Source of the DNA: Lichenostomus cassidix
Taxonomy: Eukaryota > Chordata > Aves > Passeriformes > Meliphagidae
Direction of reading: 5' to 3'
Assembly: GCA_008360975.2 (NCBI GenBank)
Contig: VLJF02000035.1
Span: forward strand, 806,001 to 870,000
DNA length: 64,000 bases
The position numbers and the translations under genes are program-made. Positions 521-56,900 of this stretch are shown here, in pieces. Numbering within the stretch: the first letter of the stretch is position 1; each line of letters opens with the position of its first letter. Below the pieces are notes generated by a model. It was not told the DNA's origin. It saw nothing but the letters and a program-made list of their open reading frames with translations, and did no database searches.

Positions 521-597
521 GCCAACGAGGCTCTCAGGAGATCCAAATTCCAACCATCCGGAATCCGGAAACGAGGGGAGCGAGAGAGTCAAGGCAG
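521..597 (+). CDS. SIPA1L3: SIPA1L3 coding exon A
   Basis: Acceptor CCCTGCAG precedes the exon and donor CAG|GTATGG follows it. The first G completes a codon, then 25 codons (PTRLSGDPNS to SERVKA) and a final G. The frame was chosen because only this one joins exon B without a stop and gives KA-EPLWHIP. On its own the exon is open in other frames, so its frame rests on the junction. Confidence 0.75.
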
Positions 598-3500
598 GTA
601 TGGAAATTTGGGAATTCTGGGGGGAAAATCGGGAATTCGGGAGGAAATTTGGGAATTTTGGGAGGAAATTTGGGAATTCCGGGGGGAAATTTGGGATTTT
701 GGGGCAGAAAAGTTGGGATTTTAGAGGGAAATTCGGGATTTTTGGGTGGAAATTTGGGAATTCAGGTTGGAAATTTGGGGGTTTTGGGTTGGAAATTTGG
801 GAATTGAGTGCAGAAATTTGGGAATTTGGGTGGAAAATTCGGGATTTTGGGAGGAAATTTGGGATTTTGGGAGGAAATTCGGGAATTCTGGTTGGAAATT
901 TGGGATTTTGGGAGGAAATTTGGGAATTAGGGTTGGAAAAGTGGGAATTAGGGTTGGCAATTTGGGATTTGGTGTTGGAAATTTGGGATTTTGGGAGGGA
1001 AATTCAGGAATTCTGGCAGGAAATTTGGGATTTGGATATGGAAATTTGGGAATTTTGGGGGGAAATTTGGGAATTGAGTACAGAAATTGGGGATTTGGAG
1101 GGAAATTTAGGAATTTTTGGTGAGAAATTTGGGAATTTTGGGTTGGAAGTTTGGGATTTGGTTTTGGAAATTTGGGAATTGGGGAGGAAATTTGGGATTT
1201 TTGGGAGGGAAATTTGGTGAGAAATTTGGGGATTCAGGTTGGAAATTTGGGGGTTTTGGGTTGGAAATTTGGGATTTGAGTGCAGAAATCTGGGATTTGG
1301 AAGGAAACTTGGGAATTTTGGGTTGGAAATTTGGGATTTTGGGAGGAAATTTGGGATTTGGTTTTGGAAATTTGGGATTTCAGAGGGAAATTGGGATTTT
1401 TGGAGGGAAACTTGGGATTTTTGGGAGGAAATTTGGGAATTCAGGTGGGAAATTTGGGGATTAGGGTTGGAAAATATGAGATTTTGGGAGGGAAATTCGG
1501 GAATTTTGGGGGGAAATTTGGGATTTGAGTACAAAAATTTGGGATTTGGAAGGAAATTTGGGAATTTTGGCGGGAAATTTGGGATTTGAGTACAAAAATT
1601 TGGGATTTGGAAGGAAATTTGGGAATTAGGGTTGGAAATTTGGGATTTGGGTTGGAAAATTTGGGAATTTTGGGAGGAAATTTGGGAATTTTGGGAGGAA
1701 ATTTGGGAGTTAGGGTTGGAAATTTGGGCATTGAGTACAGAAATTTGGGATTTCGGGAGGAAATTTGGGAATTCCGGTGGGAAATTTGGGATTTTGGGTG
1801 GGAAAAGGTTGGAATGTTGGTGTTTTGATCCTCCTGGTTCCCAATCCCATTCCCAAAATTCCTGATCCCATTCCCAAAATCCCAAATTCCTGACCTCATT
1901 CCCAAAATCCCAAAACCCATTCCCAAATTTCTGATCCCATTCCCGAATTCCCAAATTTCTGACCCAAAGTTCCCGAATTCCCGAAGGAATTCCCAAAATC
2001 CCAAATCCCAAAATTCCTGAATTTCTGACCCAAATTCCCAAATTCTTGACCTCATTCCTAAAGTTCCAAAATCCCCCAAATTCCCCAAGTTCCCAAATTT
2101 CTGACAGAATTCCCAAAATCCCCAAATTTCTGACCCCAATTCCCGAATTTCTGATGTCATTCCCGAATTTGTCTTCCCCAAATTCCCAAATTTCTGACTC
2201 CATTCCCGAAATTCCCAATCCCAGAGCCCCTCTGGCACATCCCAAATCCCCCAAAATTCCCAAATTCCTGACAGAATTCCCAAATTTCTGACTCCATTCC
2301 CATTCCCAGAGCCCCAGAATTCCCAAATTTCTCATCCCAAATTCCTGAATTTCTGACCCAAAATTCCCAAATTTCTGACTCCATTCCCAAATTCCAGAGC
2401 CCCTCTGGCACATCCCAAATCCCTGAAATCCCCAAAATTCCCGATTTTGTGACCCAAATTCCCAAAATCCCCCAAATTCCCAAATTTCTGACCCAAAATT
2501 CCCAATCCCAGAGCCCCTGTGGCACATCCCAAATTCCCCAAATCCCCAAAATTCCCAAATTTCTCACCCAAAATTCCCAAATTTCCCAAAATCCCAGAGC
2601 CCCTCTGGCACATCCCAAAATCCCAAATTCCCCAATTTCTGACCCAAAATTCCCAAAGTTCCCGAATTCCAGAGCCCCTCTGGCACATCCCAAATTCCCC
2701 AAATCCCCCGAAATCCCCAAAATTCCCCAATTTCTCACCCAAATTTCCCAAAATCCCAGAGTCCCTGTGGCACATCCCAAAATCCCAAATTCCCGAATTT
2801 CTGACCCAAAATCCCCAAAATTCTGACCCCATTCCCAAATCCCAGAGCCCCTGTGGCACATCCCAAATTCCCCGAATTCCCCAAAATTCCCAAAATCCCC
2901 AAAATCCCCAATTTCTGACCCAAATTTCCCGAATTCCCAGAGCCCCTGTGGCACATCCCAAATTCCCCAAATCCCCAAAATTCCCAAAACTCCCAAATTT
3001 CTCACCCAAATTTCCCAAAATTCCAGAGCCCCTGTGGCACATCCCAGCATTCCCAAAATCCCCAAAATTCCCAAATTTCTGACCCAAAAATTTCCCAAAA
3101 TCCCAGAGCCCCTGTGGCACATCCCAAATCCCCAGAATCCCCAAAATTCCCAAATTCCCCAATTCCTGACCAAATTCCCAAATTTCTCACCCAAAATTCC
3201 CAAATTCCCGAATTCCAGAGCCCCTGTGGCACATCCCAAATCCCCCAAAATCCCCAAAATTCCCAAATTTCTGACCCAAAATTCCCAAATTTCCCAAAAT
3301 TCCAGAGCCCCTGTGGCACATCCCAAATCCCCCACATTCCTCAAATTCCCCAAATCCCCAAAATTCCCGAATTTCTGACCCAAAATTCCCGAAATTCCAG
3401 ACCCCTGTGGCACATCCCAAAATCTCAAATTCCCGAATTTCTGACCAAAATCCCCAAAATCCCCAAAATTCCCGAATTTCTCACCCAAATTCCCAAATTT

Positions 3501-53911: not shown

Positions 53912-53974
53912 TCACTCAGTCCAGCGATGGCCGCAGTGAGGAGCTGTGCACACGTAGTAAAGCCTCATGGCGTC
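53912..53974 (-). CDS. POLR2I: POLR2I exon 6 and stop codon
   Basis: Acceptor ATCCCACAG|GACGCC, then [20 protein letters not shown] and TGA at 53914 down to 53912. It carries C114 and C119 of zinc ribbon 2. Confidence 0.97.
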
Positions 53975-56900
53975 CTGTGGGATTTGGGAGAAATTTAGGG
54001 AATTTTGGGGTAAAATTCCAGGAATTTTCCCAGGAAGGATACTTAAGGGGAATTTTGGGAATTTTTGGAGTTTTTTGAAAATTTTTGGGGGTTTTTGGGG
54101 GGTTTTTTGGGGTTTTTTTTAGGATTTTTGGGGCATTTTTGGGAAGATTCTCAGGTGGATTCCTGTGGGATTTAGGGGAAATTTAGGGAATTTTGGGAAT
54201 TCTGGGGTGAAAATCCCGGATTTTCCCATGGGGAATATCTGGATAGGATTTTGGGAATTTTTGGGATTTTTTGTGGATTTTTTGGGGGTATTTGTGGGTT
54301 TTTTGGGGTTTTTTTTAGGATTTTTGGGGCATTTTTGGGAAGATTCCCAGGCGAATTCATGTGGGATTTAGGGGAAATTTAGGGAATTTTGGGAATTCTC
54401 AGGTGAAATCCCAGGAATTTTCCGAGGAAAAATACTTGGAGGGAATTTGGGGAATTTTTGGGATTTTTTTGAAAATTTTTGGGGTTTTTTGGGGGGTTTT
54501 TGGGGGTTTTTTTTAGGATTTTTGGGGCATTTTTTGGGAGATTCCCAGGAGGATTCATGTGGGATTTAGGGGAAATTTAGGGAATTTTAGGAATTCTGGG
54601 GTGAAATTCCAGGACTTTTCCCATGGGGAATATCTGGATAGGATTTTGGGGTATTTTTTTTTTTTTGTGGATTTTTTGGGGGTATTTGTGGGTTTTTTGG
54701 GGTTTTTTTTAGGATTTTTGGGGCATTTTTGGGAAGATTCCCAGGCGAATTCATGTGGGATTTAGGGGAAATTTAGGGAATTTTGGGAATTCTCAGGTGA
54801 AATCCCAGGAATTTTCCGAGGAAGAATACTTGGAGGGAATTTTGGGAATTTTTGGAGTTTTTTGAAAATTTTTGGGGGGTTTTTGGGGTTTTTTTTAGGA
54901 TTTTTGGGGCATTTTTGGGAAGATTCTCAGGCGAATTCCTGTGGGATTTAGGGGAAATTTAGGGAATTTTGGGAATTTCCAGAATGAAATCCCAGGAGTT
55001 TTCCCAGGAAGAATACTTGGGGGGAATTTTGGGAATTTTTGGGATTTTTTTGAGAATTTTTTGGGGGGTTTTTTGGGGTTTTTTTTAGGATTTTTGGGGC
55101 ATTTTTGGGAAGATTCTCAGGCGAATTCATGTGGGATTTAGGGGAAATTTAGGGAATTTTGGGAATTCTGGGGTGAAAATCCAGGACTTTTCCCAGGGGA
55201 ATATCTGGATAGGATTTTGGGGTATTTTTGGGATTTTTTGTGGATTTTTTGTGGGTTTTTTGGAGATTTTTGGGGATTTTTTAGGATTTTTGGGGCATTT
55301 TTGGGAAGATTCCCAGAAGGATTCCTGTGGGATTTAGGAGAAATTTAAGGAATTTTGGGAATTTTTGGGGTGAAATTCCAGGAATTTTCCCATGGGGAAT
55401 CCTTGGATGGAATTTGGGGAATTTTTTGGGATTTTTTTGAGGATTTTTTTGGGTTTTTTGGGGGATTTTTGATTTTTTTTTTTGAGATTTGGAAGGATTT
55501 TTTGGGGATTCTTAAGATGAATTCCTGTGGGATTTGGGGAGAATTTTAGGGAATTTTGGGAATTCTGGGGTGAAATCCCAGGAATTTTCCCATGGGGAAT
55601 CTCTGGGGTGGATTTGGGGAATTTTTTGGGATATTTTGGGGATTTTTTTGGGGTTTTTTGGGGGCTTTTTCAGGGGTTTTCTGGGACTTCTGGGGTTTTT
55701 TTGGAGAGTTTTTTTGGGGTTTTTTTAGGGTTTTTGGGGTTTTTTAGAGTTTTTGGGATTTTTAAATGGGGTGAATTATGGGGTTTTCTATTGGGATTTT
55801 TTGGGGCTTTTTCAGGGTTTTTTTGGGGATTTTGGGGTTTTTTTGGGGGTTTTTTGGGATTTTGGGGGAGTTTGGGGATTTTGAGATTTTTTTTTGGGGC
55901 TTTTGGGATGGATTTTTAGGATTTTGGGGCTTTGGGATTGGATTTTTTGAGGTTTGGGATTTTGGGGTTTTTGGGGTTTTAGGATTTTTTTGAGGGTTTG
56001 GGATTTTTTGACCATTTTTTGGGGAGTCTTAGGATTTTTTTGGGATTTTTTTTTTATTTTTGGGATTTTTTAAATTGGCTTTTCATTTTTTTGGGATTTT
56101 TTTTTTGGGATATTTTTGGGAACTTCTTGGGGGATTTTTTTGGGATTTTTCTGGGGATTTTTGGGGGATATTTTTGGGGTTTTTTTTGGGTTTTCTCACC
56201 TCAGCCCTGGCGCTGTGGGACTGGAAGAACACTGCTTCCTTATGGCCACACCTGGGGGGAAAAAAACCCCAAAATTACCCCAAAATCACCCCAAAATCTC
56301 CCGAAATTCCTCCCAAAATTACCCCAAAATATCCCCAAATTTATCCCAAAATTACCCCAAATTCCTCCCAAAATATCCCCAAATTGCTCCCAACATCACC
56401 GCAAAATATCCCCAAAATCCTCCCAAAATTACCCCAAATTCCTCCCAAAATTACCCCAAAATATCCCCAAAATCTCCCCAAATTCCTCCCAAAATATCCC
56501 CAAATTCCTCCCAAAATCTCCCCAAATTCCTCCCAAAATCTCCCCAAATTCCTCCCAAAATTACCTCAAAATCACCCCAAAATATCCCCAAATTTATCCC
56601 AAAATATCCCCAAATTCCTCCCAAAATATCCCCAAATTTATCCCAAAATTACCCCAAAATATCCCCAAATTCCTCCCAAAATTACCCCAAAATCACCCCA
56701 AATTCCTCCCAAAATTACCCCAAAATCACCCCAAAATGTCCCCAAATTCCTCCCAAAATATCCCCAAATTCCTCCCAAAATTACCCCAAAATGTCCCCAA
56801 ATTCCTCCCAAAATTACCCCAAAATCACCCCAAAATATCCCCAAGTTTATCCCAAAATTACCCCAAAGTCACCCCAAAATCTCCCCAAATTCCTCCCAAA

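Follow-up and report, generated by a model that had tools for sequence, protein, structure and literature searches.

How do the introns of a gene come to be built from tandem copies of the edges of that gene's own exons? This question is raised by a window of 64,000 nucleotides (nt) from the passerine bird Lichenostomus cassidix (positions 806,001 to 870,000 of contig VLJF02000035.1, here C69, which is 1.88 Mb long in an assembly of 1.10 Gb). Ten coding exons on the plus strand, numbered E1 to E10 within the window, form the 3' end of a gene of the SIPA1L family (match to the SPAR_C domain at E = 6e-47) that we take to be SIPA1L3, following an earlier note on this DNA and the human gene neighborhood; POLR2I is encoded on the minus strand (a PDB RPB9 chain matches the whole query, E = 1.4e-84). 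The earlier note had claimed that the minisatellite units of most SIPA1L3 introns, and of POLR2I intron 5, contain a junction of the same intron that is cut off after a short piece of exon. Our analysis identifies the SIPA1L3 arrays as a strong further example of what has been published as "exon stuttering" (PMC12954441), with the anatomy of the "mirages" of amphioxus (PMC3087553), a phenomenon that was in print before that note. What this locus adds is an array at the stop codon and a suggestive bias toward the third codon position in the copies. We consider it likely that the arrays represent exon stuttering on a dot-like bird chromosome, with a founding tandem duplication, amplification in blocks, and survival only where one exon stayed intact.

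Copies of Exon Edges in SIPA1L3 Introns

At 29 exon edges (19 of SIPA1L3 and 10 of POLR2I), the 40 exon bases nearest the edge were aligned locally to the intron or 3' region next to it. Controls were 100 dinucleotide shuffles, the remaining introns, and the reverse-complemented sequence. Local alignment with shuffles was used instead of exon-only blastn, which missed most of the 17-nt copies of E2. Copies were recovered at 10 of the 19 SIPA1L3 edges. Nine of these are among the 18 spliced edges and account for 67 copies, and both the other-intron and the reverse-complement controls were lower at all nine. Best scores at positive edges ranged from 17.5 to 40, as compared to shuffle maxima of 9 to 14.5 and best other-intron scores of 8 to 14.5. 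The copies are in direct orientation, are anchored at the junction, and occur in eight of the nine introns, such that the claim that most SIPA1L3 introns carry their own junctions is confirmed; intron 8 was without edge copies in this survey.

Seven of nine acceptors (63 copies) and two of nine donors (4 copies) are represented (Table 1). The nine edges without copies were the donors of E1, E2, E4, E6, E7, E8, and E9 and the acceptors of E4 and E9. A single match at the E4 acceptor (score 13) satisfied the count rule and was dropped as low complexity, given scores of 18 in another intron and 12.5 in inverted orientation; inverted-control scores did not exceed 12.5, and this rejected edge was the sole one at which such a control rose above its own shuffle maximum (12.5 versus 12).

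Each copy either starts at exon base 1, or at base 2 or 3 if the initial bases are mismatched, or runs to the final exon base. The captured exon part measures 17 to 39 nt in most arrays. The earlier description of the captured side as mostly the 3' splice site is borne out, and the 10 to 40 exon bases that it named become this measured range. Donor-side capture, which had been assigned to exons corresponding to E3 and E5 (there C and E), is also present, although not as the only side, since both exons have acceptor copies too. Two single copies are irregular: the alignment of the E3 donor copy spans 115 nt and is gapped, and the E6 copy comprises 32 nt followed by more exon sequence past an internal deletion. 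Neither a second full-length exon copy nor a split exon was seen in the SIPA1L3 locus, in agreement with the claim that the complete exon is present once, and the copies sit within introns.

Sliding 16-mers that start less than 10 nt from a SIPA1L3 junction recur in the adjacent intron in 83 of 190 cases and in other introns in 7 of 190. At 40 to 49 nt from the junction the corresponding counts are 2 and 7 of 132, and the excess fades at about 30 nt. At 60 nt or more, 33 of 161 recur in the adjacent intron and 43 of 161 in other introns, where the low-complexity interiors of E3 and E6 are involved.

An Array at the Stop Codon

The tenth positive edge has no splice site. The last ~39 coding bases, the stop codon, and the sequence that follows are repeated in 16 copies that extend to 45.7 kb (14 copies by alignment and 16 by pattern search), with TGA in 16 of 16, in an array that the earlier note had missed. 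Because the sole AATAAA or ATTAAA between the SIPA1L3 stop and position 50,000 is at 49,010, this array is probably located in the 3' untranslated region (UTR). An array without a splice junction argues against a splice-specific cause and is the strongest argument for a general tandem instability whose products persist where one coding copy stays intact. The locus therefore separates the view that splice junctions are special from the view that any coding edge survives given one intact copy.

Cut-Off Points and Array History

The point at which exon sequence ends is nearly constant within arrays. It falls at base 34 in 23 of the 24 E8 copies (base 33 in the other) and at base 35 in 4 of 4 E3 acceptor copies; base 17 is reached in 26 of 26 E2 copies, and the three E5 donor copies start at one common exon base. 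Units are spaced by 153–205 nt in the E8 array (with two of ~350 nt), by 66–173 nt in the E2 array, and by several hundred nt in the E3 array. The E2 acceptor copy nearest the exon (4624–4707) would, if used, add 84 in-frame and stop-free nt. The intron to the left of the first E8 copy reads TGA followed by TTTTTGGG, and the exon cut-off of E8 likewise reads TGA; the TGA shared at the start of this array is possibly a 3-nt microhomology.

Similarity among units was compared across lags in 33 tests without correction, with two double-length E8 units split by eye and 15 stop units used. Similarity was not highest between neighbors. In the stop array it peaks between units that are eight apart (0.883 versus 0.795, P = 0.0015), and weaker signals were detected in E2 for units three apart (P = 0.016) and in E8 for units ten apart (P = 0.03). 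This pattern fits duplication of multi-unit blocks.

We infer duplication and unequal exchange as the mechanism. A tandem duplication would run by chance from non-coding DNA a short way over a coding edge. In a direct tandem layout, one copy would retain the whole exon, allowing the gene to survive, and in the other an exon edge would run into intron or UTR sequence. Blocks of several copies may later be duplicated, or exchanged out of register, to yield arrays with one, or nearly one, cut-off base. Such a process would be blind to splice sites, with the edge at the stop codon behaving like spliced edges. Spare splice sites would be tolerated, probably through exon definition: because the exon upstream gives rise to donor copies and the one downstream to acceptor copies, donors would precede acceptors within an intron, leaving no short acceptor-to-donor pair and no false exon. 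The donor copies precede the acceptor copy in intron 5, the sole intron here with both.

Several observations weigh against this mechanism. Cut-offs are looser in E7 (bases 26–32) and E10 (bases 33–35), two of the 16 stop copies retain a short exon part only, and a position of cut-offs nearer the edge than random breakpoints would predict is no more than an impression. On correction for multiple tests, the lag signals of E2 and E8 are lost. POLR2I, in the same window, had copies at 0 of 10 exon edges in the edge alignment survey. Acceptors are affected more than donors (7 of 9 versus 2 of 9, two-sided P = 0.057), an excess that an edge-blind process does not predict. Lastly, the basis is one assembly of one species, in which the rate and the stepwise mechanism are not seen.

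Possible Exchange Between Copies and Exons

A tentative alternative is joint evolution of copies and exon edges, in which an exon under selection would reseed its copies again and again or exchange sequence with them. The unique differences that separate copies from exons number 52, of which 7, 17, and 28 are at codon positions 1, 2, and 3, respectively. The 28 third-position differences compare with 19.5–21.6 expected when placement is matched for CpG dinucleotides (P = 0.009–0.022), and the 25 synonymous differences compare with 17.1–20.6 expected (P = 0.013–0.086, the strictest matching being non-significant); without CpG matching, P is 0.005 and 0.0065, respectively. This test excluded an E8 copy with an indel (34023) and the two short stop copies (45027 and 45352); the E3 donor copy entered with its last 40 nt and the E6 copy with its first 32 nt only. 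When E7, whose copies diverge near the cut-off, is removed, P for the synonymous excess is 0.010 with pooled arrays and 0.074 within arrays.

Exchange is also favored by the farthest E10 copy (40878), which is identical to the true exon over 30 flanking bases where the two nearer copies are not, and by diversity that is lower in cores than in filler in E8 (0.061 versus 0.286) and E2 (0.045 versus 0.210). However, the core of the stop array (0.103) is barely below its filler (0.132) and POLR2I intron 5 has windows of equally low diversity without exon sequence, and because these two depart from the pattern in E8 and E2 the diversity comparison is not decisive. Moreover, changes in the exon itself would give the same codon bias, and exchange between copies and exon is therefore suggested rather than demonstrated.

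A broader and similarly doubtful possibility is that arrays and exon edge form one evolving unit, in which an array has the coding edge, including the stop codon, as its last member and this edge trades sequence with non-coding copies. If so, instability of introns and UTRs would feed into protein ends and splice sites, arrays would record past states of exons, and stuttering would belong to coding edges generally and not to splice junctions. Exchange between exon edges and copies would also be relevant to the rapid evolution of proteins and the loss of genes that are discussed for dot chromosomes.

Splice Sites, POLR2I, and Assembly

Less probable still is a splice-linked process, in which a feature of the 3' splice site (the branch-point region or R-loops, for example) turns acceptors into hot spots and the copies serve as decoy or recursive splice sites. 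Acceptors hold 63 of the 67 copies at spliced edges, as this explanation would have it, and 62 of 63 acceptor copies retain AG where the true acceptor has it (the E2 copy at 3402 lost the second AG of AGAG). GT is retained in three of four donor copies. Retention of AG and GT as a signature of selection was rejected, given too few variable sites in the SIPA1L3 cores, and AG retention accordingly says little about selection. The stop-codon array, which lacks any splice site, stands against this explanation, as does the loss of AG in POLR2I intron 5. The eight units of that intron repeat the 3' splice site with ~2 exon nt, a repetition that counts in favor; four have AG and four AT. The claim of the earlier note does not hold for POLR2I at the level of the exon: copies were recovered at none of its 10 edges, and 0 of 288 sliding POLR2I 16-mers recur; the tested P3 acceptor was placed ~5 nt inside the exon.

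Repeated acceptors in an intron of a further gene are likewise in favor of a splice-linked cause. RyR-domain matches are located on C69 at ~1.50 Mb, in an RYR1-like gene. Edge-region copies were identified at 5 of its 18 tested edges, with a query that included flanking intron, and among three acceptors inspected, a copy that clearly exceeds ~5 exon bases was present at one. An acceptor array before one exon (L036:2532–3207) comprises 11 tandem units: one with ~22 exon bases, five with ~5, and five that end at or before the exon.

That the arrays are an assembly artefact of misassembled or falsely repeated low-complexity reads is highly improbable: although the sequence is of extreme low complexity and two phase mismatches in the exon models (E2/E3 and E8/E9) allow for base errors or wrong donors, copies and exons are not identical (118 mismatches over 2,361 aligned bases), units differ among themselves (mean identity 0.61–0.80), copies occur at 10 separate edges, and the equivalent structure in chicken PHF8 is reported as verified in raw nanopore reads (PMC12954441).

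Distribution Beyond the Locus

The absence of stuttering from the edges tested in SIPA1L3 paralogues favors the preferred reading, tandem duplication with survival of one intact exon. On the large contigs C5 and C8, the two loci that the comparison covered (a third paralogue on C32 was left out), 0 of 16 edges of eight exons scored above shuffles, with one tie with a shuffle maximum and edges that are approximate, being drawn from tblastn. Tandem repeats cover 0.6% and 0% of 20 kb each at these loci versus 84% of 264 kb of C69. Of 154 open islands in the flanks of the window on C69 (200 kb), 95 are accompanied by a direct partial copy no more than 6 kb away, as compared to three with an inverted and none with a reversed copy; the islands are unannotated, and some may be copies themselves. 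C69 measures 1.88 Mb, has this tandem-repeat cover, and bears the RYR1-like gene; its identity as a dot chromosome of a bird fits the literature, short of proof.

The earlier note had further proposed a general process that lengthens introns and multiplies splice-site-like sequences. A general local process is supported by the SIPA1L3 introns, the RYR1-like acceptor array, and 236 chicken introns (PMC12954441). The tie to splice junctions fails at the stop-codon array, and the spread among genes is uneven, as POLR2I and the RYR1-like gene illustrate.

Other Features of the Window

The exon models and arrays are compiled in Table 1. Reading phase is mismatched between the models of E2 and E3 (window 4796–4805), where an E2 donor at 4796 would fit phase better, and between those of E8 and E9 (35270–35402), with long G and C runs inside E8. 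In SIPA1L3 introns 1 (598–4707) and 8 (35403–39974), sense-strand guanine–cytosine (GC) skew changes in mid-intron from positive on the 5' side to negative on the 3' side, and the same switch was observed in POLR2I intron 2 (59094–60349, minus strand); it looks as if donor-side and acceptor-side arrays had each grown from their own edge. Downstream of the SIPA1L3 stop, positions 47098–48269 contain 14 perfect matches to GAAnnTTCnnGAAnnTTC, all on the plus strand (0.06 expected from shuffles), an array that resembles heat-shock elements. At ~63.3 kb there is probably the first exon of TBCB.

Table 1. Exons and arrays of edge copies, by position in the window.
Feature	Position	Strand	Remark
SIPA1L3 exon E1	521–597	+	no exon-edge copies
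E2 acceptor and first 17 exon nt, intron 1	2227–4640	+	26 copies
SIPA1L3 exon E2	4708–4803	+	source of intron 1 array
E3 acceptor and 35 exon nt, intron 2	5946–7954	+	4 copies (5946, 6824, 7377, 7920)
SIPA1L3 exon E3	8556–8788	+	source of copies on both sides
E3 end and donor, intron 3	9071–9163	+	1 copy (GTTAGT)
SIPA1L3 exon E4	10597–10719	+	no accepted copies
E5 start, intron 4	13899–13933	+	1 copy
SIPA1L3 exon E5	14499–14646	+	source of copies on both sides; start chosen by reading phase (14500 used in tests)
Last 39 nt of E5 and donor, intron 5	14951–15823	+	3 copies; GT retained in 2 of 3
E6 start, intron 5	19577–19652	+	1 copy
SIPA1L3 exon E6	21630–21798	+	
E7 acceptor and 24–32 exon nt, intron 6	26031–27864	+	4 copies
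SIPA1L3 exon E7	28372–28467	+	
E8 acceptor and first 34 exon nt, intron 7	30595–35140	+	24 copies
SIPA1L3 exon E8	35270–35402	+	
SIPA1L3 exon E9	39975–40045	+	no copies
E10 acceptor and ~33 exon nt, intron 9	40878–42042	+	3 copies (40878, 41449, 42010)
SIPA1L3 exon E10, coding part	42692–42841	+	ends at TGA 42839–42841
Coding end including stop codon	42989–45717	+	16 copies; period mostly 161–177 nt
POLR2I last exon	53907–53974	-	adjoins intron 5 units
3' splice site and ~2 exon nt, POLR2I intron 5	54163–55525	-	8 copies
POLR2I exon 5	56200–56251	-	no copies

Comparison With Known Systems

Exon stuttering was described by Hron et al. (2026; PMC12954441) in 115 chicken genes and 236 introns (190 on dot chromosomes). 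Sources lie no more than 1 base from the exon border in >90% of cases, the exon part is 20–187 bp (median 36) in 1–44 copies, and 183 of 192 stuttering introns vary in length among chickens. The authors term the mechanism speculative, and their work covers introns. In the chicken cases as in SIPA1L3, the lateral part of an exon, together with its splice site, recurs as direct tandem copies in an adjacent, repeat-filled intron, and the SIPA1L3 sources likewise lie within 1 base of the exon border. Stuttering in chicken strongly prefers dot chromosomes and is not seen in the ohnologues shown in that study, which parallels the result at our paralogues. Their threshold (BLASTn-short, at least 20 nt, bit score of 42.1) has a length floor above most E2 copies (17 nt), and scoring here differs.

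What sets SIPA1L3 apart is that eight of nine introns in one gene stretch are affected and that an array includes the stop codon, which is outside the scope of their exon-versus-intron screen. Cut-offs at the level of units, blocks, and codon positions are analyzed here and were not found in the portions of that paper at hand. Its main text does not mention stop-codon stuttering (the words UTR, stop codon, and untranslated are absent), nor does the word mirage occur in it. Among the top matches listed from literature searches, of which one addressed stop-codon stuttering by name and which mostly leave subscription journals outside their scope, no title or abstract opening announced it.

Tandem motifs also fill the introns of reconstructed GC-rich chicken genes such as TNF-alpha and MRPL52, as they do here, although copies of exons or splice sites are not mentioned in the portions of that report at hand (PMC6792250). 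Intron gain by tandem genomic duplication (PMC4974935, PMC3443670) likewise involves tandem duplication inside a gene; unlike in those cases, no new intron was seen in SIPA1L3, where existing introns fill with copies.

The mirages of amphioxus are minisatellite-like tandem duplications across an intron–exon boundary, on its 5' or 3' side, in which many copies retain splice signals and regular splicing is reported (PMC3087553, PMC3902484). A minisatellite that spans the intron–exon boundary is likewise what SIPA1L3 exhibits (PMC3087553), whereas mirages are described from few genes (the globin example has 6 and 3 units) and from another lineage. With ten edges that have copies, arrays of up to 26 units, a near-constant cut-off, and one splice-free edge, the SIPA1L3 locus is a dense and readable case that ties the bird phenomenon to the amphioxus mirages.

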